DNA from: Geodermatophilus obscurus
GTDB lineage: Bacteria; Actinomycetota; Actinomycetes; Mycobacteriales; Geodermatophilaceae
Reading direction: 5' to 3'
Length of the DNA: 64,000 nucleotides
Assembly: GCF_900115395.1 (NCBI RefSeq)
Contig: NZ_FOWE01000002.1
Coordinates: 434,001 to 498,000, forward strand
The position numbers and the translations under genes were made by a program. Shown here in pieces: positions 3,742 through 22,433 of the stretch (the first letter of the stretch is position 1; each line of letters opens with the position of its first letter). The notes beneath the pieces were generated by a model. The model did not search any database. It was not told where the DNA came from and was given only the letters and a program-made list of their open reading frames with translations.

Positions 3742-3772
3742 CCCGCTCCCCGCGGGCGAGAGAAGGAGAACC

Positions 3773-6239: not shown

Positions 6240-6265
6240 GCCGGCCGGCCGGGGCCCGGACCGGG

Positions 6266-7090
6266 CTAGACGGTGCCGTCGGGGACCGGGTGCAGGTGCG
6301 GCCGGGGGCCGGAGAAGAGCGCGTTGGCCCGGTCCAGGTCGGCCTCGAAGTCGACCTCGACGGCGGCCCAGCGGGAGATGTCCAGCGGCCGGAACCGCAG
6401 GCCCGCGTCGGCGATGGCGGTCTCCATGCCACGCTCGAAGTAGTCCTGGTCGCCGCACCCCTCGAGGTGCTCGATCAGCGTGGCCTTGTCCCGCGAGGAG
6501 ACGTGGTTGATGCCCACGGCCTCGCCCAGGCCGCCCTCGACCGTCTTCGACAGGCCGGCGATCCAGCCCTCGGCGTCGAGGGTGTACTTGACCTCCTCGT
6601 CGCCGACCACGGAGGTGTCGACGCACACGAAGCTCTCGTCGGCCTCCAGCGCCGGGACCACCGACTCCAGGACGGCGGCGTCGAACACGACGTCGCCGTT
6701 GAGCCACAGCACCCCGCCGGGGCCGGTCGCGCGCAGGCCGCGCAGCAGGCTCTTGCTGGTGTTGGTCCGCGCGTAGTGCGGGTTGTAGGCGAAGCGCAGG
6801 TCCGGCGCGGCCTGCATGAGCAGCTCGCACTGGAAGCCGACGACGGCGGTCACGTCGACGGCCGGGCCGAGCACCTGCCCCAGCGTGTCGAGCTGGCGCT
6901 GCAGGATGCTGCGCCCGTCGTGCAGGGGTGTCAGCGGCTTGGGCAGGGGCCGGCCGAGCCGGGTGCCCATCCCGGCGGCCAGGACGACGACCTGTACGGG
7001 CCGGTCCTGCGGCCGCGCGGCCGGACGGGTGGGACGCGGCAGGAAGTCGCCGCGTGCCGGGGTGGTCTGCGTGAGGTCAGCGGTACGCAC
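6266..7090 (-). CDS. Nucleotidyltransferase (phosphocholine/polyol-phosphate cytidylyltransferase-like)
   Basis: A 274-residue sugar-nucleotidyltransferase fold: VVVLAAGMGTRLGRPLPKPL is the nucleotide-binding loop, with LNGDVVFD as the metal-binding aspartate motif. The first about 30 residues are a basic, proline-rich extension. The closest functional relatives by motif are the small NTP transferases that activate choline phosphate or polyol phosphates with CTP. The start overlaps the preceding gene, a CDP-glycerol-type phosphotransferase, by 14 nt, which supports a role in supplying its CDP-activated donor. Substrate is inferred, not shown. Confidence 0.82.
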   Translation of the reverse strand: MRTADLTQTTPARGDFLPRPTRPAARPQDRPVQVVVLAAGMGTRLGRPLPKPLTPLHDGRSILQRQLDTLGQVLGPAVDVTAVVGFQCELLMQAAPDLRFAYNPHYARTNTSKSLLRGLRATGPGGVLWLNGDVVFDAAVLESVVPALEADESFVCVDTSVVGDEEVKYTLDAEGWIAGLSKTVEGGLGEAVGINHVSSRDKATLIEHLEGCGDQDYFERGMETAIADAGLRFRPLDISRWAAVEVDFEADLDRANALFSGPRPHLHPVPDGTV

Positions 7091-8207: not shown

Positions 8208-8986
8208 CGACCACCTCCGGTCAGGACGGGCAGGAGCAGGTCGGCGAGCTCCTGCCAGGACGAGACGACGGCGAGCACCCCGGCCTCGCGCAGCGCGGCC
8301 TCGCGGTCGGCGCGTTCGGCGGGCTGCACGAACAGCAGGTTCCCCACGGTGGGACAACCCGCGCGGACCGCCGAGAGTGCCCCCGGCACGGAGTCCTCGA
8401 CGGCGAGGCCCTGCCGTGGGGCGATCCCGAGCCGCTCGCAGGCGAACAGGTAGACCGCCGGGTCGGGCTTGCTCGTGGGCTCCGGGAGGGAGTCCTCGGC
8501 GCTGAACCGTACGGCCGGAGGGACCAGCCCGTCGAGTCCGGTGGCGGTGAAGCAGGCGGCCAGCCGGGCCAGCGCGCTGGAGCTCACCGCCGCCAGCCGC
8601 AGGTGCGGCGCGAGGGCGGTGAGGGCGGCGGTGGTCTCCGCGTGCGGTCGCAGGTGCTCGCCGAGGTACGCCGTCACCGCGCGCCGCTCCTCGGCGACCC
8701 ACGGCTCGACGTCGACGTCGGGCCGGCCCGCCTCGGCGGCCAGCCGCCGCGCCGTCGACCGGAAGTTCATCCCGGTGGTGGCCAGCCGCAGCTCCTCCGG
8801 GCCGTACCGGCGCGGGTCGCCGAGGTCGGCGAGGAAGCGGTTGGTGACCCCGGTGGAGGCGACGAAGGCCGGCTCCTCGGAGGGGAAGAGGTTGCCGTCG
8901 GCGTCGCAGAGCAGCGCGGTGAGGCCGGCGACGACGGACCGGGGGAGGGTCGCCGTGCCCGCCCCGCCCTCGCGGGGCGGGGTCAC
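8204..8986 (-). CDS. HAD-superfamily phosphatase (beta-phosphoglucomutase/polyol-phosphatase type)
   Basis: A 260-residue HAD hydrolase. Motif I is LLCDADGNLFPSE, with DxD as nucleophile and acid/base, although the usual threonine after DG is asparagine. Motif II is AAVSSSALARL, motif III is the lysine of TSKPDPAVYLFACERLG, and motif IV is VEDSVPGALSA. A helical cap lies between motifs I and II. The GTG start overlaps the mannitol dehydrogenase stop by 4 nt. In Acinetobacter a HAD phosphatase is fused to a mannitol-1-phosphate dehydrogenase, so a mannitol-phosphate or related phosphatase is a reasonable guess here. Confidence 0.85.
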   Translation of the reverse strand: MTPPREGGAGTATLPRSVVAGLTALLCDADGNLFPSEEPAFVASTGVTNRFLADLGDPRRYGPEELRLATTGMNFRSTARRLAAEAGRPDVDVEPWVAEERRAVTAYLGEHLRPHAETTAALTALAPHLRLAAVSSSALARLAACFTATGLDGLVPPAVRFSAEDSLPEPTSKPDPAVYLFACERLGIAPRQGLAVEDSVPGALSAVRAGCPTVGNLLFVQPAERADREAALREAGVLAVVSSWQELADLLLPVLTGGGR

Positions 8987-10569
8987 CGATCGCTCGCGGC
9001 GGTGCGGGCGGCCGAGCTGGCGCAGGCGGACGTGGCGGCGGCGACGGTGGCGCGGACGCCGTCGCGCTCGAGCCGGTGCAGGACGGCCGCCAGCTCGTCG
9101 GCGAAGCCGGGGACACGGCCCAGGTCGCCGACGACGGACTCCTCGGCGAGCAGGGGACGCGGGTCGGTCCCCCCGGCCAGGGCGAGCGCCTGCAGGTGCG
9201 GGCCGGCGTCGTCCTCGACCGGCAGCGGCACCCCGGCGTCGTCGGTCCGCTGCAGGTAGCGGATCCAGCCGGCCAGCGCGAGGGTCAGCAGGCCGTGCGG
9301 GCGCTCCTCGGCCAGCGCCTGGCGCAGCGAGGGCAGCAGGTGCTGCGGCAGCTTGGTCGAGCCGCGGCGGCACAGCCGGGACAGCCGGTCGGCGATCGCC
9401 GGGTTGCCGAAGCGCTGCAGCAGCGTGGCCTTGTACTCGGCGAGGTCGATGCCCTCCGGGCAGCGGATGAGCGGGGTGACCTCGTCGTCCATGAGGTGCC
9501 GCGCGTAGGCGGCGAACACCGGGTCGCCCACGAGCAGGTCGATCCGGTCGTGGCCGGCCAGCGTCCCGAGGTAGCCCAGGGCCGAGTGCGTGGCGTTGAG
9601 CAGCCGCGTCTTCATGAGCTCGTGATCGGTGACGTCGCGGACGTAGCGCACGCCGACCTGGTCCAGCGGCGGGCGCCCGTTGCAGAAGGTGTCCTCGATG
9701 ACCCACTGGGCGAACGGCTCGGTGACGACCGGCCAGCGGTCGTCGACGCCGTACCGGCGGGCCACGGCCGCCCGCTCCTCGGGGGCGGTCTGCGGGGTGA
9801 TCCGGTCGACCATGCTGCTGGGGAAGGCCACGCGGTCGGCGATCCAGCGGGCGAGCACCTCGTCGCGGCGCGCGGCGAAGCCGACGACGGCGGCGCGGGT
9901 GGCGTCGCCGTTGCGGTGCAGGTTGTCGCAGGAGAGCACGGTGAACGGCGCGGTGCCGGCCCGCCGGCGGCGGTCGAGCGCCTCGACGAGGAACCCGAAG
10001 ACCGTCCGCGGCGCGCCGGGGTGGGCGAGGTCGTGCCGGACGTCGTCGTCGGGGGTGAAGGCGCCGGTGCGCGGGTCGAGCAGGTAGCCGGCGTCGGTGA
10101 TGGTCATCGTGACCACCCGCGTGCGCGGGTCGGCCAGCCGGTCCAGGACGGCGGCCGGGGCGTCGGGGGCGAACAGGTAGTCGGTGAGGACGCCGACCAC
10201 CCGGGCCCGCTCGCCGTCGGGGCTGCGCTCCACGACGGTGTAGAGGTTGTCCTGCGGAGCCAGGGCCTCCTGCATGAGCCGGGCCCGCAGGCCCACCCCG
10301 ACGACGCCCCACTCGTCCGAGATGCGCCGCTCGGCGACGTCGTCGAAGTAGGTGAGCTGGTGGGCTCGCGAGAACCCGCCCACGCTGAGGTGCACGACGG
10401 CGGGGACGAGGGCCGCGCGGTCGTAGGTGGGGACGGTCAGCCGGGCCCCGTGCTGCTCGAGCGTCGCGGCGGTCAGCGGCCGGATGCGGACGACGGGTGC
10501 CACCGCCGGCTCCGGAGTGGCCGTGAGGCTCCGCGGCTGCTCCCGCGGAGGACGCTCGGGCTGCGCCAT
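8983..10569 (-). CDS. Mannitol dehydrogenase family protein (long-chain polyol dehydrogenase)
   Basis: A 528-residue member of the polyol-specific long-chain dehydrogenases. The N-terminal Rossmann segment has the family block VVHLSVGGFSRAHQLTYFDD, and the catalytic lysine/asparagine/histidine triad is in MKTRLLNATHSALGYLG (K, then N five and H eight residues later). It probably interconverts fructose (or fructose 6-phosphate) and mannitol (phosphate) with NAD(P)H. It is the first gene of a four-gene overlapping operon with a HAD phosphatase, a TagF-like transferase and a cytidylyltransferase. The first about 25 residues are a proline- and arginine-rich extension. Confidence 0.9.
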   Translation of the reverse strand: MAQPERPPREQPRSLTATPEPAVAPVVRIRPLTAATLEQHGARLTVPTYDRAALVPAVVHLSVGGFSRAHQLTYFDDVAERRISDEWGVVGVGLRARLMQEALAPQDNLYTVVERSPDGERARVVGVLTDYLFAPDAPAAVLDRLADPRTRVVTMTITDAGYLLDPRTGAFTPDDDVRHDLAHPGAPRTVFGFLVEALDRRRRAGTAPFTVLSCDNLHRNGDATRAAVVGFAARRDEVLARWIADRVAFPSSMVDRITPQTAPEERAAVARRYGVDDRWPVVTEPFAQWVIEDTFCNGRPPLDQVGVRYVRDVTDHELMKTRLLNATHSALGYLGTLAGHDRIDLLVGDPVFAAYARHLMDDEVTPLIRCPEGIDLAEYKATLLQRFGNPAIADRLSRLCRRGSTKLPQHLLPSLRQALAEERPHGLLTLALAGWIRYLQRTDDAGVPLPVEDDAGPHLQALALAGGTDPRPLLAEESVVGDLGRVPGFADELAAVLHRLERDGVRATVAAATSACASSAARTAASDR

Positions 10570-10790
10570 CGAGGCATCGGTCCTTCCTGTCGAGACTGCT
10601 GGATCCGGCCACGACCGGTCGCACCGCCGCCAGGGGGCGCCCGCGGGTCCCGCCGGGGACGATCATGGGATCACGCCGGGTACACCGGCCGCACCCCTGG
10701 GGAGGGTGGCGGCCGGCTCGTGCGGCGAGTCCGGCGGCGTGTCGGGCACCGGCGCGACGGGGCACGCGGGTACCGGGCTTCAGCGGGGGC

Positions 10791-10844
10791 GTCGGCCCGG
10801 CGGGAGTCGTCGGCCCGGCGGGAGTCGTCGGACCGGCGCGAGCT
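10791..10844. repeat. 18-bp tandem repeat, three units
   Basis: GTCGGCCCGGCGGGAGTC occurs twice in a row and a third time with changes (GTCGGACCGGCGCGAGCT). It is not in a gene. No function is evident. Confidence 0.8.
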
Positions 10845-10951
10845 TCTCCACGCCGGAGAGTTCTGGTTCCCGGCTGGGCCGCCGGCCAAACGCGGGGCGC
10901 GGCGTGACCCGCGGCACGCGGCGCGTCACTCGACGACACGCCGAGCGAAGG

Positions 10952-10982
10952 GTTACGAAGCGGTCACGGTGTGTTTGTATGG
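10952..10982 (+). promoter_or_regulatory. Paired GTYACG direct repeat plus GTGTTTGTATGG upstream of the M23 peptidase
   Basis: GTTACG and GTCACG are spaced 11 bp start to start, followed 2 bp later by GTGTTTGTATGG. The same arrangement, with the same spacing, is found at 63749-63779 before another gene start. Direct repeats of GTNAC with about one helical turn spacing resemble sites of MtrA, the response regulator that controls cell-wall hydrolases in actinobacteria. The assignment to MtrA is inference; the duplication of the motif is observed. Confidence 0.55.
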
Positions 10983-11035
10983 CGACCACCTGATCGGGCC
11001 CACGGGGGCCGCTTCCCACGAGCGGGGTACGTGCA

Positions 11036-12058
11036 TTGGCGAGTCACCGGAGTGACGCGGGTCTGCTGACCCGCCCCTCGAGCGGTTCCCGCACCGAGGT
11101 GCCCGGTCCCCGCAGCGGTGGGCACCGCCGCGCCGCCGCCCGTCCCGTCTCCCCGCTGCGCGGCTTCCCGCCCGTGCGCCCGCCGGAGGAGGCCACCCCG
11201 CCGTCCGCGCCGTCGCCCGCCCTCGTGCCCCGGCCCCGCGCCGCGGCCGACGACGTCGTCCCGGTGCGGCCGGCCAAGGCGCTGCCCGGCGTCGAGCTGC
11301 CCACTGCGGTCGTCCGCGCGGAGGCCCCGCCGACCGCGGCCCGCCCCGCCGCCGCGCCCGCGCCCCGCCGCCGTCGCGGCCTGCGCGACCGCCGCCCCTA
11401 CTTCCTGATCGCCGCGCTGGTCGCCGGCGCCGTCGGGGCCGGGGTCGTCGGCGTGCCCGGCGCGGCGACGTCGACGGAGCCGACCTCGGTGCTCGGCGCC
11501 CGGACGGAGCTCGCCACCGGCGACGAGGTGGTCGAGGTCATGCCGATGGCCTCCATCACCGAGGCCGAGGCGCAGGCCCGGCTGCAGGAGGTGGCCGCCT
11601 CCCGCGCCGAGCGCGCCGCTGCCGAGGCCGCGGCGGCGGAGGCCGCCGCCGAGGCGGCCCGGCCCAAGACCGTGCTGCCGGTCCAGGGCGCCCGCTTCAC
11701 CAGCGGCTACGGCTCGCGGTGGGGCACCTTCCACTACGGCATCGACCTGGCCGCCCCCATCGGGACGCCGGAGTACGCCGCGGCCGACGGCGTCGTGGTG
11801 CGGGCCGGCGCGGCCAGCGGCTTCGGCCTGGCCGTGTACATCCTGCACGAGAACGGCGACGTCACCGTCTACGGCCACATGGAGGAGATCCTGGTCGAGC
11901 CGGGCCAGTACGTGGACGCCGGTGAGACCATCGCGCTGCTGGGCAACCGGGGGCAGTCGACCGGGCCGCACCTGCACTTCGAGGTGCACGAGGGCGGCAT
12001 GGACGGCCGCCGGATCGACCCCGTCCCGTGGCTGGCCGAGCGCGGCGTCGAGGTCTGA
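11036..12058 (+). CDS. M23 family metallopeptidase (LytM-like peptidoglycan hydrolase)
   Basis: A 340-residue membrane-anchored peptidase. Residues 1-120 are a basic, proline/alanine-rich cytoplasmic tail, 121-143 a transmembrane helix, about 172-208 an alanine/glutamate-rich coiled-coil stalk, and 215-335 the M23 domain. Zinc and catalytic residues are visible: H233 and D237 (HYGID), H281 (YGHM), H312 and H314 (PHLHFEVH). All are present, so the enzyme should be active on peptide cross-links outside the membrane. The start is a TTG; no better start occurs in frame nearby. A conserved direct-repeat motif lies 54-84 bp upstream. The tRNA-Ala gene follows. Confidence 0.9.
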   Translation: MASHRSDAGLLTRPSSGSRTEVPGPRSGGHRRAAARPVSPLRGFPPVRPPEEATPPSAPSPALVPRPRAAADDVVPVRPAKALPGVELPTAVVRAEAPPTAARPAAAPAPRRRRGLRDRRPYFLIAALVAGAVGAGVVGVPGAATSTEPTSVLGARTELATGDEVVEVMPMASITEAEAQARLQEVAASRAERAAAEAAAAEAAAEAARPKTVLPVQGARFTSGYGSRWGTFHYGIDLAAPIGTPEYAAADGVVVRAGAASGFGLAVYILHENGDVTVYGHMEEILVEPGQYVDAGETIALLGNRGQSTGPHLHFEVHEGGMDGRRIDPVPWLAERGVEV

Positions 12059-12162
12059 CGCACGCGGGGGAGGAGCGACGCGCGGCCACCCCCTGCCGCG
12101 GCCGCCCGCGGGCGGCGATGTACAGTTCTCCTCGGTCCGGGCGACACCGGCCGGACCGGAAC

Positions 12163-12235
12163 GGGGCTGTGGCGCAGCTGGTAGCGCACCACACTGGCAG
12201 TGTGGGGGTCAGGGGTTCGAGTCCCCTCAGCTCCA
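12163..12235 (+). tRNA. tRNA-Ala (anticodon GGC)
   Basis: A complete cloverleaf of 73 nt. The acceptor stem GGGGCTG pairs with CAGCTCC and contains the G3:U70 pair that identifies alanine tRNAs. The anticodon stem CCACA/TGTGG encloses loop CTGGCAG, giving anticodon GGC. The T arm is AGGGG-TTCGAGT-CCCCT, and the discriminator base is A. CCA is not fully encoded. It follows the M23 gene and is closed by a strong hairpin. Confidence 0.97.
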
Positions 12236-12244
12236 CCCCGACGA

Positions 12245-12277
12245 CCAGGGCGTTCTCCCTCAGGGAGAGCGCCCTGG
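12245..12277 (+). terminator. Hairpin terminator after tRNA-Ala
   Basis: CCAGGGCG-TTCTCCC-TCA-GGGAGAG-CGCCCTGG forms a near-perfect stem with a tiny loop, immediately downstream of the tRNA. It lacks a U tract, as is common in high-G+C actinobacteria. Confidence 0.8.
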
Positions 12278-12704
12278 GTCACATCCGGGGTGGCACAGAT
12301 GGTGCGGTGAACGGCATCGGCAGGTCGACTCCACCTCGACCGGGCTGAACGCCGACGGACCCCTGCCACTCGGAAGCCGAACACCGGGCAGGCCCTCGCG
12401 GACCTGCAGGCGCTGCTGGGTGGCGGGGGAGGGTCGGATCCACCGGCTCTGCGCCGTCGACGGCCCACTACTGCGGCGACGATCGACCCGGCCGGCCACC
12501 TCGACACGGACGCCCCTCGCAACGCGGTGTCGGGCGGGTACGGCATCACAGATGCGGGGCTGCGCAGGTTCCGCTGACGCCTGGACGGCGGCGACGCCGG
12601 CAACCGGTCGGAGGACCTGCCGGTCAGCCTGTCGGCGCCGGCCGGTGAGGACGGCGTGGTCGAGTCGACCCTCGACGGCTGGGAGCGCTGACTGCGGCCG
12701 TCGG
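12278..12704. other. Intergenic region, 427 bp, no confident gene
   Basis: This stretch separates the tRNA terminator from the 3' end of the biosynthetic island. Short open frames occur on the plus strand, one ending in VVESTLDGWER before a TGA near 12691, but none has a plausible start with a ribosome binding site. It may be decayed sequence. I looked for a copy of the tRNA 3' end or an integrase remnant and saw neither. Confidence 0.5.
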
Positions 12705-13493
12705 TCAGGACAGCAGTCGTCCGCTCTGACGCAGCAGGGGCCCGGCGTCCCGGTGGACGACGTCGTCCGGGGCGGGGCCCACCACGGCCAGCGCGGCGGC
12801 GAAGCCTGCCGGCGCGGGCAGGTCGTCCAGCCACACCGGTTCCGGGTCGTCCCGGTGCAGCACCCGCGGCGGGGTGGACGGCGGGGTGAGGACGAGCTCG
12901 TCCGGCAGGATGCCGAGCCCCTGGCCGGTGGCCTTGAGCACTGCCTCCCGGCGCACCCAGGAGATGGTGAACGCCCACGGCTGCTGGGTGGCCGGCAGGC
13001 GGGCCAGGTGCTCGCGCTCGGGGTCGGGCAGCACGCATCCGGCCAGGTCGCCGACCTCGCCGGGCGCGAGACACCAGACCTCCTGGACGTCCACGCCGAC
13101 CGGGTGGCCGGGCAGGACGGCGACGGCGACCCAGTTGCCCGAGTGGGAGACCGAGAAGTGCAGTCCCTCGGCGCCCGGTAGCCGGGGCCGGCCGTGGGGC
13201 GAGCCGCAGGAGGTGCACGTCCGGTCGATCCGCAGCGCCTGCGGCGGCGTCCCGAGGGCTGTCCCCAGCACCAGCCGGACGACCGCCGCGCCCGCCGTCA
13301 GCCGCAGCCGGTCGGCCGGGCGGGTCAGGCGGACCCGCCGGGCCAGGTCCGCGTCACCAAGCAGCGTGTCGTGCTCCGGGCGGACGTCGCCCGGACAAGC
13401 CCACCACACCTGGCACACCCCCGGCAGCGACGCCAGGTCGGGCTCCGACCGCGGCCAGGGCGGCCATCCGTGTGTCGACGCCAGGGGGGTCAT
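12705..13493 (-). CDS. Sfp-type 4'-phosphopantetheinyl transferase
   Basis: A 262-residue PPTase that would attach phosphopantetheine from CoA to the carrier domains of the upstream NRPS and Pls-like proteins. The core blocks are FSVSHSGNWVAVAV, VGVDVQEV (residues 132-139) and WVRREAVLKATGQGL (179-193). Aspartate 135 and glutamate 183 match magnesium ligands of Sfp. Glutamine 137 stands where Sfp has a third acidic ligand, and arginine replaces the lysine of the KEA motif. The ATG overlaps the SbnB stop by 4 nt (ATGA), so it is the last gene of the island operon. Confidence 0.92.
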   Translation of the reverse strand: MTPLASTHGWPPWPRSEPDLASLPGVCQVWWACPGDVRPEHDTLLGDADLARRVRLTRPADRLRLTAGAAVVRLVLGTALGTPPQALRIDRTCTSCGSPHGRPRLPGAEGLHFSVSHSGNWVAVAVLPGHPVGVDVQEVWCLAPGEVGDLAGCVLPDPEREHLARLPATQQPWAFTISWVRREAVLKATGQGLGILPDELVLTPPSTPPRVLHRDDPEPVWLDDLPAPAGFAAALAVVGPAPDDVVHRDAGPLLRQSGRLLS

Positions 13494-14518
13494 CCGTAGC
13501 GGGACAGCTCGGTGAAGAAGTCGTCGACCACGTGCAGGTCGCCCGCCCGCGCCACCTCGTCGTGGACGAAGCGTCCTACCGCCAGGTCGAGCACGCCCAG
13601 CCCGAAGGGGGAGAAGATCACGGGCCGGTCGTGGGGCACCGTCACCCGCCCGGTCATCACGTCGGCGAGCGTGCCCAGCAGGAAGTCGCGGCTGCCGGTC
13701 AGCTGCTCGACCAGGTGCGGCGAGGTGTCGGCCTTGAGGCAGTGCTCGACGTCGTCGACCAGGTTGGCCGAGGCGAGCAGCACCTCGGGTGCGAGGTCGC
13801 GCAGCGACACGTGCAGCACCACGGGGCAGTGGGCGAACGCCGTCACGTCGGAGACGTAGGGCCGCCCGGCGATGGTGGCGAAGACGACCAGGTCGCTGGC
13901 GCGCACCACCGCCTCGGGGCTGTCGTGCACGGTGACCCGACCGGTGGTGCCCGTGCGCTCGAGGTAGCCGCAGAAGCCGGCCGTGCTGTCGGCGGACAGG
14001 TCGTGCACGGCCACCTCGTCGAACGACCAGCCGGTGCCGGTCAGGTAGGTGTGCACGTAGCGGGCGATCAGCCCCACCCCGACGAACCCGACCCGCGCCG
14101 GACGGCCGCGGTCGCGGGTCAGCCAGTCGGCCGCCAGTGCCGCCGACGCCGCCGTCCGGCTCGCGCTGACCACCGAGGCCTCGAGGCAGGCGAACGGGTA
14201 GCCGGTCTGGTGGTCGTTGAGGACCAGCACCGCCGAGGCCCGCGGGATCCCGGACGCCACGTTGTCCGGGAAGCTGGAGATCCACTTGACGCCGTGCACC
14301 CGCACGTCACCGCCGATCGAGGCCGGCAACGCGATGATCCGGGCCGAGGGCCGGTCGGGGAAGCGCAGGAAGTACGACGGTGGGTTGACCGTGTCCCCGG
14401 ACGCGTGCACCAGGTAGGTCGCCTCGACCAGCTCCACGACCTGCGTCTCGCGGCCCTGCAGGGCGCGCTGCACCTGGGCGCCGGACACCAACGCGAAGGA
14501 CGGGACGGCGGCGGTCAC
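13490..14518 (-). CDS. sbnB: 2,3-diaminopropionate biosynthesis protein SbnB (ornithine cyclodeaminase family)
   Basis: A 342-residue member of the ornithine cyclodeaminase/mu-crystallin family, with the NAD-binding loop VGFVGVGLIARYVHTYL at about residues 135-151 and family blocks VHGVKWISSFPDN and DHQTGYPFACLEAS. In the staphyloferrin B pathway SbnB oxidatively splits N-(1-amino-1-carboxy-2-ethyl)-glutamate into 2-oxoglutarate and L-2,3-diaminopropionate. The SbnA partner gene lies at the 5' end of the same operon, which strongly supports this role over ornithine cyclodeamination. The chosen GTG overlaps the dioxygenase stop (GTGA); the frame opens slightly earlier, inside that gene. Confidence 0.9.
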   Translation of the reverse strand: MTAAVPSFALVSGAQVQRALQGRETQVVELVEATYLVHASGDTVNPPSYFLRFPDRPSARIIALPASIGGDVRVHGVKWISSFPDNVASGIPRASAVLVLNDHQTGYPFACLEASVVSASRTAASAALAADWLTRDRGRPARVGFVGVGLIARYVHTYLTGTGWSFDEVAVHDLSADSTAGFCGYLERTGTTGRVTVHDSPEAVVRASDLVVFATIAGRPYVSDVTAFAHCPVVLHVSLRDLAPEVLLASANLVDDVEHCLKADTSPHLVEQLTGSRDFLLGTLADVMTGRVTVPHDRPVIFSPFGLGVLDLAVGRFVHDEVARAGDLHVVDDFFTELSRYG

Positions 14519-15516
14519 GGGGCACCCACCGGGACCGTCGGGGAGCAATCGGCCAGGTGCACCGGGTCCGCGAGGGCGACCAGCACCTCACGGGGCCCGG
14601 TGTAGGCCTCCCGGCTGTGCGCGGTGCGCACGTTGTCCACCAGCAGCAGGTCACCGTCGTGCCACGGCTCGCGGGCGGTGTGCCGCTCGTAGACGGAGTT
14701 GAGCAGCGCCACGACGTCCTCCCCGATCGGGTCCCCGTCGCCGTAGGCGGTGGTGAACGGCAGCCCCTCGGGGCCGTAGACGTCGACCAGGTACTCGCGT
14801 ACCTCCTCGGCCAGCGTCCACTCGTTGAGGAACGCCACCTGGTTGAACCAGCAGCGCCGCCCGGTGACCGGGTGCCGGACGACGGCGCTGCGCCGCTGCC
14901 GGGTGCGCAGCCCGCCGTCGGGCTGCCACTCGACGTCGATGCCGTTGGCCCGGCAGTAGGCCTCCACCGCGCCACGGTCGTCGGTGCCGAACGCCTCGGG
15001 CCAGGGGGCGCCGATCTCGTCGTTGTAGCTGCGCAGCAGTAGCCAGCCCTCGCGCTCGAAGCGCGATGTGAGGTCGGCCGGGAGGGCGTCCAGCACGGTG
15101 GGCGCATCGGCCACCGCGGTCGCGCCGCCCTCCGCCGGCGCGGTCAGGCAGGCGAACAGCAGCAGGCCGGGGAACTCCATGGCGTAGCTGAGCTCGTGGT
15201 GCATGCACATCGGCTGGTTGGCCGGCCAGGGCGTGGCCGAGTACAGCCCGCTGGGCTGCAGCTGCCGGGGTGCGAAGGCCTCCCGCTCGAGGACCAGCCG
15301 GTCGGTCAGCCGACTCGCCACGTCGGCGACCGTGCCGGCGTCGGCGAGGCCCAGGCCACGGACCAGCACCGACCCGTGGTCGACGACGGCGGCACGCAGC
15401 GCCCCGCGGTGCTCGGCCGCCCAGGCCGCAGGGTCGCCGGGTACGTCAGTGCGCAGCACCGGGGGGCTGCCCGGGCGCAGGTCCACGTCGAGGGGGGGCA
15501 CCGGGCACGACGTCAT
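14515..15516 (-). CDS. TauD/TfdA family Fe(II)/2-oxoglutarate dioxygenase (SyrP-like)
   Basis: A 333-residue non-haem iron dioxygenase. The metal motif is in QPMCMHHELSYAMEFPG (HxE), the distal histidine in LLVDNVRTAHSREAY, and the 2-oxoglutarate-binding arginine probably in TGPREVLVAL. The alternation of GLLLFACLTAPAEGGAT is typical of the SyrP/TauD-like branch found in NRPS clusters, where such enzymes hydroxylate a carrier-bound or free amino acid. Its start overlaps the NRPS stop and its stop overlaps the SbnB start, so it is fully embedded in the operon. The substrate is unknown; hydroxylation of Dap or of the polymer is the contextual guess. Confidence 0.88.
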   Translation of the reverse strand: MTSCPVPPLDVDLRPGSPPVLRTDVPGDPAAWAAEHRGALRAAVVDHGSVLVRGLGLADAGTVADVASRLTDRLVLEREAFAPRQLQPSGLYSATPWPANQPMCMHHELSYAMEFPGLLLFACLTAPAEGGATAVADAPTVLDALPADLTSRFEREGWLLLRSYNDEIGAPWPEAFGTDDRGAVEAYCRANGIDVEWQPDGGLRTRQRRSAVVRHPVTGRRCWFNQVAFLNEWTLAEEVREYLVDVYGPEGLPFTTAYGDGDPIGEDVVALLNSVYERHTAREPWHDGDLLLVDNVRTAHSREAYTGPREVLVALADPVHLADCSPTVPVGAP

Positions 15517-18044
15517 AGCGCGTTGCCTTCCGGGGCTTCGGAGGAGGGGACGGAGGAGGGCCGGCCGCGCTCGTCGAGCAGAGCGGCGAGGTCGGCCAGG
15601 ACGGGATGCCGGACGAGGTCGGGCAGGGAGACGGTGCGGTCCAGCGCGATCGCCAGCTTCACGGCCGACAGTGACGTCCCGCCGCGGTCGAAGAAGCCGT
15701 CGGTCCGGCCGATCTGGTCGGCTGGGATGCCGAGCACCGTCGACCAGGCGGCGGCGACCCTCCGCTCGCTCGGCGTCCGCGGGGCGGTGGTGTCCTCGAC
15801 CACCGCAGCGAGCTGGCCGGCCAGCGCGGTGAGGACCTTGGTGTCGACTTTGCCGTTGGGGGTCAGGGGCAGACTCGGCCGGTGGTGGAAGGCGCGCGGC
15901 ACCATGTACGCCGGCAGGGAGGCGGCCAGCCGGTCCCGGAGGACGTCGTCCGGCAGCTCGTCGCCGGTGAAGAAGGCCACGAGGTGGCGGCTGTGGTCGG
16001 GCCCCTGCGCCACGACCACCGCGTTGTCGCGCACGCCGGGCACCCCGAGCAGGGTGTTCTCCACCTCGCCGAGCTCGATCCGGAAGCCCGAGATCTTCAC
16101 CTGGCTGTCCCGACGGCCGAGGAACTCCAGTTCACCACTGGGCAGCCAGCGTCCGGAGTCGCCGCTGCGGTACAGCCGCCGGCCCGGGCGGTACGGGTCG
16201 GGCACGAAGGCCCGGCGGGTCCGCTCCGGGTCGTTGACGTAGCCGCGGCCGACGCAGACGCCGGAGAAGACGATCTCGCCGGGCGCGCCCAGCGGCACCG
16301 GCACCAGGTGCTCGTCGACCACCCGTACCTCGACGTTGGGGATCGGGCGTCCCAGCGGTACCCGGTCGGTCTCCGGGACCGACCGCAGGACCGCGTGGTT
16401 GGTGTCGTCGGAGGTCTCGGTCAGCCCGTAGGCGTTGACCAGCGCGATGCCCGGCTGTGCGGCGAACCAACGCTGCACGAGTTCCTTCTTCACCGCCTCG
16501 CCGGTGACCGACACGCAGCGCAGGTCGGGCAGCCCGCGGGGGTGCGCCTCCAGGTAGGTCAACACGACCTCGAGGTAGGAGGGGACCACCTGCACCACGG
16601 CGACGTGCTCGTCGACCAGCTGGTCGACGAAGCGCGCCACGTCGAGGACGACGTCCTGCGGCACGAGCACGGTCCGCCCGCCGACCACCAGCGCCGACAC
16701 CAGCTGCCACAGGGAGATGTCGAAGCCCTGCGGGGCGACCTGCGCGACCACCCGGCCTCCGGCGACGCCGAGGTCGTCGATCTTGGCCAGGACGTGGTTG
16801 AGCATCCCCGCGTGCTCGCACATCGCCCCCTTGGGCTCACCGGTCGACCCGGACGTGAAGAACAGGTAGGCCAGCTGCCCGGGGCCGACCGCGACTCCGG
16901 GGCTGGTCGCGGGATGCCCCTCGTCAGCGGCGTCGCCGACGTGCAGCGCCTGCACGCCCGGCAGCCCGGCCAGGGCCGCGTCGAGCGAGGCGGTGCTGCC
17001 CGGCTCGGTGAGCGCCAGCCGGCAGCCGGCGCGGGTCAGCACGACGGCGATCCGGTCGGCGGGGAGGTGCGGCTCGACGGGCAGGTAGGCGCCACCGGCC
17101 TTGAACACCGCGAGGACGGCGGTCAGCCAGTCCAGGTCGCGCTCGGTGACCACGGCGACGACGTCCTCCGGCGCGAGCCCGCGGACCAGCAGCGCCCGGG
17201 CCACCCGATTGGCGCGGGCGTCCAGCTCGCCGTAACCGATCCGGGCGTTCCCGTGCACAGCGGCGATGTCGTCCGGACGTCGGCGGGCCTGCTCCTCCAC
17301 CAGCTCGTGCACCCGGCGGTCCGGCAGCTCGCGGCGGGGTCCGGCCAGCCCCACGAGCTGGAACTCGAGCTCCTCGGCGGAGAGCAGGCTCTGCCGTCCG
17401 GGATCAGCGTCGGGATCAGCGGTCATGAGCCGGAGCGCGGTGAGGTGGTAGTCGCTGATCCGCTGGGCGGTCGCGGCGTCCACGGCGTCAGTCCGGTACT
17501 GCAGCCGCAGTCCGAGGGAGGCGCCGTGCGGGACGGCGCCGACGGAGAGGACAGCGGTGTCGGGCAGGTCGCCACCGATGCCGTCCGGGTCGACCGCGGA
17601 CTCGGACGATGCGTCGGTCAGGCCGTGCTCCCGGCGGAGGGCCTCGAGGGGGGCGTCTCGGTGCGCCAGCAGCCGCGCCCGGGCGTGCGCGGCCTCCCGC
17701 ACCAGTTCGCGCCAGGAGCCGGCGCCGGTGTCCAGCCGGCACGGCAGCGTCCGGTCTTCCGGACCGGTCACGTAGCCGGTCAGTACCTCGCGATCGCCGG
17801 ACAGCGCCGTGAGTACCCGGGCGTGCGCGGCCAGCAGCAGTGCGCTCGGGTGGACGGCCAGGTCTCCGGCCAGCTCCCGCACCGCTGTCAGCAGCCCACG
17901 GGGTACCGGCGTCTCGTGCTCCGCCACACCTGGCACCGGGTCGAGTGTCCAACGCGGGAGCGTGGTCCGTCCGCCGGTCATGAGCACCTCCCGCCAGAAC
18001 TCGCGGCCGGCGTCCGGCGTCGCGACCGTGTCCACCGCGCTCAC
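15513..18044 (-). CDS. NRPS: partial condensation lobe, adenylation domain, peptidyl carrier domain
   Basis: An 843-residue synthetase. Residues about 1-235 resemble only the C-terminal half of a condensation domain; no HHxxxDG motif is present, so it should not condense. The adenylation domain spans about 245-740: A3 FFTSGSTGEPKG (395-406), A5 NAYGLTETSDD (537-547), A7 YRSGD, A8 GRRDSQVKISGFRIELGEVE and A10 lysine 732 (NGKVD). By alignment with PheA the pocket residues read D442 I443 W446 Q485 S512 T514 A538 D546 D547; the two late aspartates would suit a positively charged side chain. The carrier domain (FFDRGGTSLSA, serine 791) follows. No thioesterase. It overlaps the Pls-like gene and the dioxygenase gene by 4 nt each. 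Confidence 0.9.
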   Translation of the reverse strand: MSAVDTVATPDAGREFWREVLMTGGRTTLPRWTLDPVPGVAEHETPVPRGLLTAVRELAGDLAVHPSALLLAAHARVLTALSGDREVLTGYVTGPEDRTLPCRLDTGAGSWRELVREAAHARARLLAHRDAPLEALRREHGLTDASSESAVDPDGIGGDLPDTAVLSVGAVPHGASLGLRLQYRTDAVDAATAQRISDYHLTALRLMTADPDADPGRQSLLSAEELEFQLVGLAGPRRELPDRRVHELVEEQARRRPDDIAAVHGNARIGYGELDARANRVARALLVRGLAPEDVVAVVTERDLDWLTAVLAVFKAGGAYLPVEPHLPADRIAVVLTRAGCRLALTEPGSTASLDAALAGLPGVQALHVGDAADEGHPATSPGVAVGPGQLAYLFFTSGSTGEPKGAMCEHAGMLNHVLAKIDDLGVAGGRVVAQVAPQGFDISLWQLVSALVVGGRTVLVPQDVVLDVARFVDQLVDEHVAVVQVVPSYLEVVLTYLEAHPRGLPDLRCVSVTGEAVKKELVQRWFAAQPGIALVNAYGLTETSDDTNHAVLRSVPETDRVPLGRPIPNVEVRVVDEHLVPVPLGAPGEIVFSGVCVGRGYVNDPERTRRAFVPDPYRPGRRLYRSGDSGRWLPSGELEFLGRRDSQVKISGFRIELGEVENTLLGVPGVRDNAVVVAQGPDHSRHLVAFFTGDELPDDVLRDRLAASLPAYMVPRAFHHRPSLPLTPNGKVDTKVLTALAGQLAAVVEDTTAPRTPSERRVAAAWSTVLGIPADQIGRTDGFFDRGGTSLSAVKLAIALDRTVSLPDLVRHPVLADLAALLDERGRPSSVPSSEAPEGNAL

Positions 18045-20986
18045 CGGGTCGCCGCCCGGTGGCGCTGGCGGGCGCGGTGTCGGCCGGCCATCCGCTGTGG
18101 CGGGACGGCCTGGTGCTGACCATCGGAGAGGGCGTCCTGACGGAGCACCTCCATGAGCTCCTCCATGGTGTCGTGGGTGCGCCCGATCCGGGCGTGGCCG
18201 TCGGGAGCGGCGCTCGAGGCGGGGGCCGACGTGCGTAGGCCGGTGGGCAGTTCGTCGTCCCGCAGCTCCTGCGCCGGGTTGCCGCCCCAGTGCTCGGCCG
18301 GCAGGACCTCAGAGCCCTTCATGAGAAAGGCGTCGGGACCGAGATCCGCGCCGTCGCCGACCGTCACGCCGTAGTGCACCCAGGCGCCGACCCCGAGGGT
18401 GACGTCGGCGCCGATGGTGATGTGGTCGGACTTGAAGCCGCCGTCCTCCTGCGAGTGGCCCTGGATGGAGGTCCCGGCGTTGATGGTGCAGTCGTCGCCG
18501 ATGGTGACCAGCGTCCGCTCGGGGATGGCGGCGCCGTCGTCGAACACCCGGCGGCCGAGTCGGACACCCAGCAGCCGCCAGACGACGTTCTTGAACGGCG
18601 TGCCGTTGTAGAAGTTCGGCTGCGTGTCGGCCATCAGCTTCCAGTAGCGCTCGTGCCACCAGAAGTACGGGTCGTAGATCGAGCACTGCTGCGGGGTCAG
18701 CGGGCGGAAACCGGTGGAGGCGCGCTCGATCAGCACGGTGTACACGGTGACGAACAGGACGGCGACCACCATGGACGCCGCGAGCGCGCTACTGCCGTAG
18801 CGGTCGCTGAGGTCGAGGCCGGCCGTGGTGATCACGGCCAGTGCGAAGACATCGACCCAGCGGAGCAGCAGGAACAGGCCCATGGTGATGAGGTTGTGCT
18901 GGTTCTTGGCGGCCAGTCGGCGGGACAGCTCACCCGGGGCCTGGAGGTGGGCGTCGATCGTGGCGTCGCGGAAGACGGTGCGCGGGATCGTGAAGGCAGG
19001 GGAGCCCAGCAGCCCGACGCCCTCCCGGAGCTCCCCGTCGATCGGGATCATCACCTTCGTCGCGAGCAGGACGTCGTTCCCGACCATGGCCTCCGCGGGA
19101 TAGGCGACCGCGTTCCCGAGGAAGCTGTGTGCGCCGATCGAGACCCAGGACGCCCTGAAGGACGTACTGGAGAAGTCGGCGTTCGAGACCGACAGTCCGT
19201 CGGCGATCATCGTGCCGCTGCCGACGGAGGTCAGGTACGGGGTGTCGTGTTTCACCGCCTCACCGAAGTTCGACCCGGTCTGCTCCACCTGCCCGAGGTG
19301 GTACCCCAGGGCTCTCAGGTAGTGGACGACGTAGGAGCTGTTGCCGGTGAGCTTCAGCAGCGGCTTGGCGTTCGTCGTCTTCGTGATCGTCCGCTGCACC
19401 GAGTAGTGGAAGCCGTACAGGGGATAGACGCGGCCCGGTGTGATGAGCGCGCTCAGCAGCCGGGGGACGGTCGTGACGAAGAGGAAGCCGACGACGTAGG
19501 TGCCGAAGTAGAGGATCAGCGAGCCCACCAGGGCGTTGAGGTAGAACGTCGCGCTGGTCAAGGCCACCGGGCCGGCATCGAGCAGCTCGCCGAGGCCGGG
19601 GAACGCGAGGAACAGGAAAGCCAGTCCGCCGATCGCCAGCGGCAGGTCGACCAGCAGCACCGTGACCAGCTTGAGGAGCGTGTAGACCACCTTGCGGCGG
19701 GTGCGACAGACCCGGGGCGGGACCAGCCGGTAGTCGACGTCGGCCCGCCGGGCCGGCGCTCCGTGCCAGCTCTCACCCGCGGGCACCGCCTGACCGGCGT
19801 GCAGCGATGACCGGTGACCGAGCTGGGCGCCGTCCCCCATCGACGTCTCGGTGTCGATGACCGAGGCCTCGCCCACGACCACGTCCCTGCCGAGGGTGAT
19901 CCGGCCGATCTGGATCTGGCCGGCGTGGGCCCGGTAGCCGCTGATCAGGACGTCCTTCCGGATCACCGTCCCGTCGCCGATGGTCAGCAGGTCGGTGGCC
20001 ACCGGAACCTGCCGGACGAAGATCGCGACATCCCGGCCGACCTTCGCGCCCAGCGCCCTCAGGTACCAGACGTACAGCGGCGTGCCGCTGAAGAACAGCA
20101 GCATCGGATTCCGCTGGATCAGCGTCTTGACGATCCAGAAGCGGACGTACGCAAGACTCCAGACCGGGAACTGCCGCGGTCCGCCGCGCCCGATCAGCGC
20201 CCACTTCACCACGATGGGCAAGAGGGTGAGCCCGACGAAGGCCGCACCGCCGGCGACGACCGACCGCGCGTACAGGTCGACGATCCCCCCGCCGTCGGAG
20301 ATCCAGCCGTAGCCGGCCACGCTGACGGCCGCGACGAGGAGGCAGTAGCCGAAGAAGAACAGCGCCTGCAGGGTCCCGCAGAGGAGGTACTGCGCCGTCT
20401 TGGCGGGGGCAGGTGGGGGTGCCGCGGTCGGCACCGGGGCCGATCGCTCGACCGCGGCAGGCAGGTCGGCGCTGAAGGCTGCGGCCAGGCTGTGGATCGT
20501 CGGGTGCTGGTAGACGTCCTTCATCGAGACCGTGGGGAGGTCTGGCTGCTTGCGTACGCGGGCGCAGAAGCGCGCCATGACCATGGAGTCCGCGCCCAGG
20601 TCGTCGAAGACGTGCGCGTCGACCGGGACCTGCTCGACCTGCAGGACGTCGGCCAGCACCGCGGCCAGCTTGGTGTCGACGGGGTCGGTGGCAGGCGGCG
20701 GTGCGAGCGCCACCGCCAGGCTGTGGATCGTCGGGTGCTGGTAGACGTCCTTCATCGAGACCGTGGGGAGGTCTGGCTGCTTGCGTACGCGGGCGCAGAA
20801 GCGCGCCATGACCATGGAGTCCGCGCCCAGGTCGTCGAAGACGTGCGCGTCGACCGGGACCTGCTCGACCTGCAGGACGTCGGCCAGCACCGCGGCCAGG
20901 ACGGCCTGGGTCTGCGGGGCGTGCTCGTCATGAACGGCCGAGGCTGCTGCCGGGGCAGTCGTGAGGACCTCGATCGGGTGTCCCAC
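18041..20986 (-). CDS. Pls/PosA-type membrane poly(amino acid) synthetase terminal region with two tandem carrier domains and no adenylation domain
   Basis: A 981-residue protein. Two carrier domains have LGADSMVMARF with phosphopantetheine serines at 57 and 134. Then come six membrane helices in three pairs (about 200-226/240-265, 433-463/482-512, 699-723/734-754), each followed by a soluble hexapeptide-repeat, acyltransferase-like domain (about 310-425, 550-690, 800-912). This is the layout of poly-epsilon-lysine synthetase after its adenylation and carrier domains (TIGR02353-type terminal region), where the soluble domains perform iterative peptide bond formation at the membrane. Here the adenylation domain is missing and must be supplied in trans, presumably by the next gene, which it overlaps by 4 nt. 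AAGGAG lies 8 bp before the GTG start. The C-terminal 60 residues are basic and disordered-looking. Confidence 0.9.
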   Translation of the reverse strand: MGHPIEVLTTAPAAASAVHDEHAPQTQAVLAAVLADVLQVEQVPVDAHVFDDLGADSMVMARFCARVRKQPDLPTVSMKDVYQHPTIHSLAVALAPPPATDPVDTKLAAVLADVLQVEQVPVDAHVFDDLGADSMVMARFCARVRKQPDLPTVSMKDVYQHPTIHSLAAAFSADLPAAVERSAPVPTAAPPPAPAKTAQYLLCGTLQALFFFGYCLLVAAVSVAGYGWISDGGGIVDLYARSVVAGGAAFVGLTLLPIVVKWALIGRGGPRQFPVWSLAYVRFWIVKTLIQRNPMLLFFSGTPLYVWYLRALGAKVGRDVAIFVRQVPVATDLLTIGDGTVIRKDVLISGYRAHAGQIQIGRITLGRDVVVGEASVIDTETSMGDGAQLGHRSSLHAGQAVPAGESWHGAPARRADVDYRLVPPRVCRTRRKVVYTLLKLVTVLLVDLPLAIGGLAFLFLAFPGLGELLDAGPVALTSATFYLNALVGSLILYFGTYVVGFLFVTTVPRLLSALITPGRVYPLYGFHYSVQRTITKTTNAKPLLKLTGNSSYVVHYLRALGYHLGQVEQTGSNFGEAVKHDTPYLTSVGSGTMIADGLSVSNADFSSTSFRASWVSIGAHSFLGNAVAYPAEAMVGNDVLLATKVMIPIDGELREGVGLLGSPAFTIPRTVFRDATIDAHLQAPGELSRRLAAKNQHNLITMGLFLLLRWVDVFALAVITTAGLDLSDRYGSSALAASMVVAVLFVTVYTVLIERASTGFRPLTPQQCSIYDPYFWWHERYWKLMADTQPNFYNGTPFKNVVWRLLGVRLGRRVFDDGAAIPERTLVTIGDDCTINAGTSIQGHSQEDGGFKSDHITIGADVTLGVGAWVHYGVTVGDGADLGPDAFLMKGSEVLPAEHWGGNPAQELRDDELPTGLRTSAPASSAAPDGHARIGRTHDTMEELMEVLRQDALSDGQHQAVPPQRMAGRHRARQRHRAATR
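20484..20668. repeat. Direct repeat copy 1 (185 bp) encoding carrier domain 2 of the Pls-like protein
   Basis: This copy and the one 231 bp further right are identical over all 185 bases by direct comparison, including synonymous positions. It encodes most of the second carrier domain (serine 134). The identity indicates a very recent duplication or ongoing gene conversion. Confidence 0.95.
20715..20899. repeat. Direct repeat copy 2 (185 bp) encoding carrier domain 1 of the Pls-like protein
   Basis: Perfect partner of the copy at 20484-20668, in the same orientation and reading frame (offset exactly 77 codons). It encodes the first carrier domain (serine 57). The 46 bp between the copies encode a proline-rich linker. 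Confidence 0.95.
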
Positions 20987-21058
20987 GTCATGGACTCCTT
21001 CAGCGCGAGGAAGCAGGTCTGTGCCCGTGCGGGGGGATGCGTCGCCTGCGCCTCCGCC

Positions 21059-22096
21059 TCAGCGCGGGTCGGACGTGACGGACGACCGGTACGCGGATGA
21101 CCGTGGCTCGAGCACGGCCGGTCCCGCCTCAGCTCCCGTGTCCACAGGGAGCGCGTCCTTGCCGTACAGAGCCTCGACCCAGTTGGACTGGTAGAGGGTG
21201 TCGAGATAGCGCTCGCCGAGGTCTGGGGCGATGGCCACCGCGGTGACGTCCCACCCGTCGTGCCGGGCCAGCCAGTTCGTGGCGCCGCTGACCACCGTGC
21301 CGGTGGAGCCGCCGAACAGGAAGCCGCGGCGGGCCAGCCGGTGGCAGGCTCTGATGGTGTCCACCTCCTCGACGAGGACCACGTCGTCGACGAAGGACTC
21401 ATCGAGCAGTTCCGGGCGGACGCCGCTGCCCAGGCCGGGGATCATCCGTCGGGCGGCCGGGCTGCCGAAGGTCACCGAGCCGACGCTGTCGACCGCGACG
21501 ATCCGCACCGGCCGGTACCACTCCCGGAACCAGCGGGCGCAGCCCATCAGGGTCCCGGTGGTGCCGGCACCGACGAACAACACGTCCAGCTCGGGGAAGG
21601 AGCGGGCGATGGCCGGTGCCGTCGTGCGGTAGTGGGCCATCCAGGCGCGCGGGTTGCTGTACTGGTTGAGCCACACGTACCGGTCGTCGGAGGCGCACAT
21701 CGCCCGGACGTAGTCCTTCCGGGCGCCGAGGAAGCCCCCGACGGAATCGGGCTCGGTGATGGTGTGCACCCGGGCGCCCAGCGCCTCCATCAGCCGCCTG
21801 CTGGACAGGTTGCACCTAGGGTCGGTCACACAGAGGAATCGGTAGCCCTTGCTGGCCGCGATCATGCTCAGCGCCACACCGAGGTTCCCGGACGAGGACT
21901 CGATCAGGACCGCACCGGGCCGCAGGCTCCCGTCCTGCTCAGCGGCATCCACCATTTCCCTCGCGGTCTTGAACTTGACCGAACCGGCGAAGTTGAAGCC
22001 CTCGCACTTCAGGAAGAGCGAGTGGTTCGAGATCGATCGGAGATCGATGTACAGGTCCTCTTCGTTGAAGGCCTGGGGAGCGCATATGACTGTCAT
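21059..22096 (-). CDS. sbnA: 2,3-diaminopropionate biosynthesis protein SbnA (PLP-dependent, cysteine synthase-like)
   Basis: A 345-residue fold-type II PLP enzyme. GFNFAGSVKFKTAREM holds the PLP lysine, IESSSGNLGVALSMIAA is the asparagine loop, and VGAGTTGTLMG the phosphate-binding loop. SbnA joins O-phospho-L-serine and L-glutamate into the substrate that SbnB then splits to L-2,3-diaminopropionate. Its partner SbnB is 6.5 kb further along the same operon. I chose the ATG preceding TVICAPQAF, with GAGGAT upstream; the frame extends 54 bases further without a better site. A gap of 72 bp separates it from the Pls-like gene, so it leads the operon. Confidence 0.92.
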   Translation of the reverse strand: MTVICAPQAFNEEDLYIDLRSISNHSLFLKCEGFNFAGSVKFKTAREMVDAAEQDGSLRPGAVLIESSSGNLGVALSMIAASKGYRFLCVTDPRCNLSSRRLMEALGARVHTITEPDSVGGFLGARKDYVRAMCASDDRYVWLNQYSNPRAWMAHYRTTAPAIARSFPELDVLFVGAGTTGTLMGCARWFREWYRPVRIVAVDSVGSVTFGSPAARRMIPGLGSGVRPELLDESFVDDVVLVEEVDTIRACHRLARRGFLFGGSTGTVVSGATNWLARHDGWDVTAVAIAPDLGERYLDTLYQSNWVEALYGKDALPVDTGAEAGPAVLEPRSSAYRSSVTSDPR

Positions 22097-22280
22097 GATC
22101 AGATCCTCAGCGGCAGCGGATCGCTCAGTTGCGCTCTCGTACCGGCGCAATGAGGCGAATTGGCCGACGACGTGCGACGTCGACGACGAGCAGTGCAGGG
22201 ATCGCCTTCGGAGCGATCGGCAGGTGTGCGGTCAGCAGTGGGGCCACGGCGATCGCGTCCACGTGCGGCGGAGCCGCGTG

Positions 22281-22433
22281 TCACCTGGTGAAGCCGTGAA
22301 CCGGTGGGAGACCTGCATGGCAGGCGTGGCACGCCTCGCACTCCTCGACGACCACGACGGACGTGACGCGGTGTGGAACCTCTGCCCCCGTGCATGAGCC
22401 CCCCTCGTCAACCGACCACGAGTCGGCCTGCAT
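22281..22433 (-). CDS. Possible small cysteine-rich peptide gene (50 codons) upstream of sbnA
   Basis: A 50-residue frame begins MQADSWSVDEGGSCTG and ends with ECEACHACHAGLPPVHGFTR. By hand count G+C is about 70% at first, 52% at second and 80% at third codon positions, the pattern expected for a real gene in this region. Four cysteines include a CxxCxxC arrangement (CEACHAC). No clear Shine-Dalgarno precedes the ATG. It lies 184 bp upstream of sbnA on the same strand. It could be a small regulatory or leader peptide, a metal-binding peptide, a peptide precursor, or chance. I do not recognise a family. Confidence 0.35.
   Translation of the reverse strand: MQADSWSVDEGGSCTGAEVPHRVTSVVVVEECEACHACHAGLPPVHGFTR

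Follow-up and report, generated by a model that had tools for sequence, protein, structure and literature searches.

A six-gene operon of Geodermatophilus obscurus probably encodes a trans-loaded synthetase of the Pls/PosA type, belonging to the poly-diaminopropionate lineage, in which a separate enzyme has taken the place of a lost cis adenylation (A) domain. The operon lies within positions 12705 to 22433 of the window, by which we mean the whole 64,000-nucleotide stretch analyzed (contig NZ_FOWE01000002.1, positions 434,001 to 498,000). A first-pass annotation of this DNA had described a split system with adenylation in trans, tied to the supply of L-2,3-diaminopropionate (Dap). Our analysis bears this out: the A domain resides in another protein and co-occurs with Dap genes, and the cis A domain decays in relatives. 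All of the claimed parts are present, each gene having a profile match; what had been missed is that the condensation (C) domain is partial, that the tandem carriers are homogenized and that the arrangement is widespread. The split, trans-loaded form appears to be new. Characterized members of the Pls/PosA kind are single chains with a cis A domain (PMC4668381, PMC10522769; PMC numbers here and below refer to excerpts of the papers), and no description of the split form was found in the open-access literature, most subscription papers falling outside this scope, so that it may have been described elsewhere.

One-piece chains make the delivery of monomers to the membrane domain hard to study. 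Separate loading and polymerizing proteins could be purified apart, their carriers counted or swapped, and monomers delivered by choice.

The operon and its separate adenylation enzyme

The six genes stand in a row on the minus strand of this high-GC genome. In order they are sbnA, the gene for an A-less Pls-type protein (pls), that for a nonribosomal peptide synthetase (NRPS) with a partial C domain followed by A and carrier (T) domains, tauD, sbnB and the gene for a 4'-phosphopantetheinyl transferase (PPTase). Genes and domains are as follows (aa, amino acids).

21059..22096, minus strand: sbnA, pyridoxal phosphate-dependent first enzyme of Dap synthesis (TIGR03945, 385.9 bits, cut-off 349.95)
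18041..20986, minus strand: Pls/PosA-type membrane synthetase without an A domain, 981 aa (TIGR02353, 701.4 bits, cut-off 423.1; PF00550 twice)
20714..20899, minus strand: carrier 1 of the Pls-like protein, aa 30-91 (LGADS serine motif; nearly identical to carrier 2)
20483..20668, minus strand: carrier 2 of the Pls-like protein, aa 107-168 (LGADS motif)
18272..20383, minus strand: membrane polymerization domain, aa 202-905, with hexapeptide-type soluble parts (TIGR02353 and hexapeptide matches, hydropathy)
15513..18044, minus strand: NRPS with partial C, A and T domains, 843 aa, proposed trans adenylation enzyme (PF00501, 263.4 bits; PF00550, 38.5 bits)
17367..18044, minus strand: C-terminal part only of a C domain (partial profile match, no HHxxxDG)
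15825..17312, minus strand: A domain, about aa 245-740 (core motifs FTSGSTGEPKG and NGK present)
15576..15761, minus strand: carrier (T) of the NRPS, aa 762-823 (PF00550)
14515..15516, minus strand: TauD-type Fe(II)/2-oxoglutarate (Fe/2OG) dioxygenase, 333 aa (PF02668, 144.3 bits)
13490..14518, minus strand: sbnB, second enzyme of Dap synthesis, GTG start at 14518, 342 aa (TIGR03944, 414.3 bits, cut-off 326.9)
12705..13493, minus strand: PPTase, ATG start at 13493, 262 aa (PF01648, 37.3 bits)

Both equivalog profiles of the SbnA/SbnB Dap pathway are thus exceeded. Overlaps of 4 nt had been claimed for the operon and occur at the four junctions 3' of pls (GTGA, ATGA, GTGA, ATGA); sbnA and pls are separated by a gap of 72 nt. 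The likely start of sbnA is ATG at 22096, with TTG at 22150 as a possible alternative. A 526-aa frame at 12705-14285 was rejected as the PPTase, most of it not being PPTase, in favor of the start at 13493. A chance gene arrangement is excluded because the same gene set was found again in most of the related loci fetched.

Comparison with TIGR02353/Pls, a check proposed in the first-pass annotation, places the membrane protein inside the Pls/PosA family, with a match over residues 202-905 above the curated cut-off. As that annotation had also stated, this 981-residue protein has two carriers and no A domain of its own: PF00501 is absent, and no cis A profile matched at E 1e-3. By hydropathy alone it has six transmembrane (TM) stretches with soluble parts between them, paired by eye as approximately 200-229/241-267, 432-469/474-516 and 698-724/730-758. 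The epsilon-poly-lysine synthetase and PosA likewise have a membrane domain of six helices in three pairs (PMC10522769), but they carry a cis A domain, whereas the window protein lacks an A domain in the same chain and has two carriers instead of the single one of a one-piece A-T-TM synthetase. No second TIGR02353 match above the cut-off was found by profile search in the same genome, an assembly of 4.96 Mb.

The NRPS had been read as a three-part enzyme, of which the A and T domains stand and the full C domain does not. In the first ~226 residues the condensation profile finds a counterpart to its C-terminal part only, with a score below the Pfam cut-off (residues 166-226 correspond to profile positions 392-452; in the homologue from locus L056, residues 11-101 correspond to 192-284). 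The pattern HHxxx[DE]G is absent from the first 400 residues in all 17 aligned NRPS proteins. Being partial and lacking this motif, the domain suggests that the NRPS should not condense. As in trans-loading NRPSs of the CmnA-A1/CmnI type, the cluster pairs an A-less carrier protein with a second protein that has an intact A domain. In capreomycin synthesis a Dap-specific A domain has been shown to load such a partner in trans, but there the partner is a T-C module of a cyclic-peptide NRPS and not a membrane polymerase (PMC12400406).

We propose that SbnA and SbnB would make L-Dap and that the PPTase would arm the three carriers. The A domain of the NRPS would activate Dap and charge its own carrier. 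As the operon has no other A domain, this one is also the most likely to charge the membrane protein, whose tandem carriers it would load in trans. The membrane domain would then form isopeptide bonds between the residues, yielding a cationic polymer or oligomer. TauD most likely oxidizes Dap on the carrier of the NRPS, and the product may be partly or wholly modified.

The two carriers of the window protein are a near-exact tandem repeat, with 185 of 186 nt identical. Comparison with P0005, a protein of the same length and 90% identity, rules out that this likeness stems solely from a recent duplication or an assembly artefact: the carriers of P0005 are alike at 61 of 62 residues versus 54-55 of 62 when compared with the window carriers. 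Because the P0005 copies match each other far better than they match those of the window, the two carriers of the window protein evidently change together and evolve in concert. Judged from the related chains, such homogenization is frequent but not universal: universal concerted evolution is not supported, as only 44 of the 108 carriers in 46 multi-carrier chains best match their own chain. Carriers were counted in 93 distinct related chains, leaving matches below 60 bits (25 for intact chains) uncounted. A single carrier is present in each of the 11 distinct one-piece chains that are intact. Of the 13 relic chains, 11 have two carriers and two have one. Among the 69 distinct A-less chains, 34 show one carrier, 21 show two, 12 show three and two show four. 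Some of these are truncated at a contig edge and may hold more, which makes 34 an upper bound for one carrier. With about half of the A-less chains showing one, tandem carriers are not essential, and two carriers were rejected as an essential feature; they probably raise loading capacity.

Relatives and the decay of the cis adenylation domain

From 343 relatives obtained in one scan of a species-genome collection, we took the best 80 loci as related loci. Searched with the window genes, they have an A-less chain in 65 cases, a chain with a relic A domain in 14 and an intact one-piece chain in one. At least 6 kb of sequence follows the chain in 69 of the A-less and relic loci, among which trans A was found in 49, TauD in 51, SbnB in 48 and SbnA in 51, and all four together in 46. 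SbnB and SbnA accompany trans A in 47 and 48, respectively, of the 49 loci with trans A and this flank. The trans A loci span Streptomyces, Pseudonocardia, Kibdelosporangium, Kutzneria, Geodermatophilus, Blastococcus, Modestobacter, Arthrobacter, Kocuria and Rhodococcus. Twenty loci lack a nearby trans A; 19 of them, from 17 genomes, were followed, and in 16 of these genomes a trans A with at least 63% identity lies elsewhere (G098 and G103 have partial pieces only).

The association is also seen genome-wide, using cut-offs of E<=1e-150 for trans A, E<=1e-60 for TauD and E<=1e-100 for a close membrane chain. Trans A occurs in 12 and TauD in 15 of 98 relatives. Wherever a relative has an A-less chain (10 genomes), both trans A (at least 65%) and TauD (at least 69%) are present, and neither occurs in any of the 10 relatives read as having an intact one-piece chain and no A-less chain. 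Three relatives contain a TauD alone, and a more distant one (36-46%). Trans A and TauD are present without a Pls chain in two others. One is G019, where there is no Pls match and the trans A is decayed (code SAGQSTADE-) and cut before its end; the other is G063, where the trans A has the code DIWQSTADDK, adjoins PALP and lyase genes and is fused to a thioesterase. The decayed trans A of locus L107 (10480-12567, minus strand), in a genome without a Pls match, has an altered A3 motif, no Asp at the D235 position and a truncated chain, while TauD and the PPTase remain. This decayed copy is a natural control for dependence on Pls.

Among 394 genomes of the class, including that of the window, a close membrane chain was found in 17, and 15 of these have trans A. 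The chain frames in these 15 are 816-1106 aa long (some are partial), too short for A-T-TM, and those of the other two are 1379 and 1425 aa with an A domain match inside. A sizeable group of polymers may therefore be uncharacterized. Four further genomes have trans A without a chain. In three of them it lies with SbnA, SbnB, TauD and further A domain matches in the same 19 kb, and in the fourth it lies there without TauD.

How the cis A domain was lost can be read from its relics, which would constitute an evolutionary record of the switch from cis to trans. An A-like relic persists in the membrane chain at 14 loci (13 distinct chains), all Pseudonocardia where the genus is named, and in six further proteins. 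In residue-by-residue alignment the A10 lysine is kept in none of the 20 relics. At A3 the lysine has given way to another residue in every relic that covers this motif (L039, at a contig end, and L041 do not), D235 is Gly in seven relic loci, and several relics are cut short. By comparison, the 12 one-piece chains (11 distinct) in the same table keep the A10 lysine, the A3 lysine and D235. The code begins with DFEC in relics L049, L060 and L098 and in the intact chains L015/L053/L081; other relic codes begin with DLES, DCQC or G. Phe at the second code position has been reported for synthetases of poly-diaminopropionate (PDAP) and of poly-diaminobutyrate (PDAB) (PMC10522769).

The membrane domain of the window protein is 53-57% identical, in the best segment, to the one-piece chains L015, L018, L019 and L081, and 28-30% identical to the DFEYNGTVTK type. 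We built a quick tree of 93 membrane domains, from which nine rows had been dropped (seven identical membrane domains and the repeats L001 and L096), and a tree of 43 rows under a simpler model, which leaves out five of the 11 intact and 45 of the 69 A-less rows. In the larger tree the intact state needs two changes (one is compatible), the seven DFEYNGTVTK chains are set far apart from the rest, and relic and A-less chains are intermixed. In the smaller one the intact rows fall on one side with support of 96. Counted on the starred branches, transitions between the relic and the absent state number at least four (93 rows) or at least five (43 rows). The trees would fit a single switch to trans loading followed by repeated erosion, deep support being weak. 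In Pseudonocardia xinjiangensis (L053), intact one-piece and A-less chains stand side by side (3289-8118 and 9935-12901), with sbnA between them.

Substrate, oxidation step and competing explanations

The PDAP synthetase of Streptomyces albulus PD-1 is among the closest known systems: like the window operon it combines a Pls-type membrane domain with Dap as monomer, the latter supplied by a cysteine-synthase-like and an ornithine-cyclodeaminase-like enzyme (PMC4668381). Unlike the window, it has A domain, carrier and membrane domain in one open reading frame of 4,338 bp, and the excerpt of PMC4668381 reports no dioxygenase or separate A enzyme; our comparison is with this description. The Phe typical of PDAP synthetases is missing here, as the sole A domain of the operon has the pocket code DIWQSTADDK (the control GrsA reads DAWTIAAICK by the same residue read-out). 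Complete trans A homologues mostly share this code, others reading DIWQSTTDDK or DIWQCTTDDK. It has six of ten positions in common with a printed 2,4-diaminobutyrate (Dab)-type code (beta-OH), DVWQMIGDDK, and Dap codes are stated to be 80% identical to Dab codes (PMC12283262). A further candidate Dab code, DIWELTADDK, was found in no paper of the open-access literature searched and is not used as evidence.

The dioxygenase matches its family profile and contains the His-X-Glu...His motif (HHE at 106, HSR at 300); the nearest solved structures are 1y0z (At3g21360) and 9yut. It is found together with the same kind of A domain, and without a nearby Pls, at L107 (where the A domain is decayed), L108, L113, L114, L115 and L116. 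Its occurrence with the A-T protein away from Pls suggests that it most likely acts on carrier-bound Dap. Three of the 69 loci (L037, L048, L064) contain TauD and Pls with a different AMP-ligase and no nearby trans A. They speak against a strict pairing of TauD and trans A, although trans A is present elsewhere in their genomes. With L068, these loci form a second type of cluster in which an A-less Pls and TauD accompany a carrier-less AMP-ligase with the pocket letters DASVATMRSK (two of the four were scanned, 565 and 578 aa), with no SbnB found nearby.

The hydroxylated product, one of the options given in the first-pass annotation, is doubtful. A hydroxyl group on the amine-bearing carbon of Dap gives an unstable hemiaminal, so that on chemical reasoning, rather than data, desaturation or alpha-oxidation of an acylated residue would be easier, and the presence of TauD beside A domains away from Pls means that its step may differ. 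It is conceivable, although we are inclined to doubt it, that these loci encode widespread actinobacterial machines in which a separate Dap enzyme performs adenylation, the synthetase's own A domain has died and the carriers have often multiplied, and which polymerize carrier-oxidized Dap. If so, a polymer of, for example, dehydro or alpha-oxidized Dap would represent a chemistry unlike any known homopoly(amino acid).

Other Dap pathways also include an oxygenase. For dapdiamide, the title of a report indicates that the Fe/2OG enzyme DdaC oxidizes a carrier-tethered Dap derivative on DdaD; the pathway shares with the window Dap synthesis, an NRPS tethering a Dap derivative and an Fe/2OG oxygenase, but is not known to include a Pls. 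Its epoxidation takes place on a fumaramoyl group, and no gene for that is present in the six-gene operon. The sulfazecin proteins SulG, SulH, SulM and SulO resemble the window set in Dap supply, a Dap-activating A domain and a non-heme iron oxygenase acting on a Dap-derived product, with the differences that a monobactam is formed via a thioesterase and that SulO oxidizes after release (PMC11298585).

Alternatively, the NRPS and TauD could work off-line, Dap being oxidized on T and then passed on, or released and re-used, with Pls polymerizing the oxidized residue. This is possible but in our view rather unlikely. It would account for the loci at which TauD and the A domain lack a nearby Pls and for the C-terminal thioesterase of several NRPS homologues (L056 12589-15861, L091 12558-15872, L108 9286-14277, L114 8274-11390, L117 6814-10545), and DdaC would be a precedent as far as its title goes; however, the operon encodes no transferase, the window NRPS has no thioesterase, and the instability of a hydroxylated amine-bearing carbon applies here as well. 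Three carriers in two proteins and TauD in one operon would also suit a mixed polymer, in which Pls carriers supply a Dap backbone and TauD-modified Dap bound to T caps or branches it, and a branched Dap-Dap polymer from Streptomyces has been mentioned (PMC10522769). We think this unlikely, given that the sequence has no sign of a branching step and that 34 of 69 distinct A-less chains have a single carrier.

A change of monomer seems less probable again. The resemblance to the Dab-type code would allow an A domain specific for Dab or another diamino acid, with Dap used elsewhere, but SbnA and SbnB lie in the same operon and beside trans A in most relatives, and at L108 the same code stands beside another apparent Dap route (an SbnA-like PALP and an argininosuccinate-lyase type protein). 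As for a conventional Dap-containing siderophore, SbnA and SbnB do serve staphyloferrin B synthesis in Staphylococcus aureus (PMC4668381), yet the partner here is a TIGR02353 membrane domain and no siderophore-synthetase or iron-uptake family was found in the 20 other window frames scanned, a part of all frames, making this explanation highly improbable.

Several observations weigh against a trans-loaded Dap synthetase, the reading that we prefer. The trans A and TauD cassette is not specific to Pls, since it also occurs without one nearby. Sixteen of the 69 A-less and relic loci have none of trans A, TauD and SbnB nearby, and one genome (G101, locus L047) has no trans A match above 41% anywhere. 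Thioesterase endings, which are found even in clusters with an A-less Pls (L056, L091), are as compatible with a modified amino acid being set free as with its delivery to Pls. A carrier number ranging from one to four means that a fixed two-carrier mechanism is not required. Lastly, the code was matched to only one Dab-type code, at six of ten positions; with code evidence this thin, the choice of Dap as the likely monomer leans mainly on gene context, namely SbnA and SbnB.

Neighboring genes and recurrent companions

Downstream of the operon are a tRNA-Ala gene (12163-12237) and an M23 peptidase frame, and a CDP-glycerol glycerophosphotransferase-type protein (PF04464) is encoded a few kb past it (7080-9284, minus strand). 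Upstream, beyond 23.4 kb, are a MEDS/ATPase frame and a PAS/SpoIIE-type frame.

Other genes recur at the related loci. A LuxE-type acyl-protein synthetase frame follows sbnB at L061 (7987-9324), L063, L077, L079, L082, L085 and L086 (one representative scanned). M28 peptidase frames lie beside or near Pls-type genes at L112 (9685-10917) and at L082 (12326-13534) with its cluster of five loci (two scanned), and these could possibly be polymer-cutting or self-protection enzymes. Pls-type genes also have a DUF418/acyltransferase-like membrane protein as a repeated neighbor (13 loci, the cluster of L035 7903-9129; one scanned), and a second PALP-family pyridoxal phosphate enzyme lies near sbnB (L076 17304-18653 and its cluster, five loci; one scanned).

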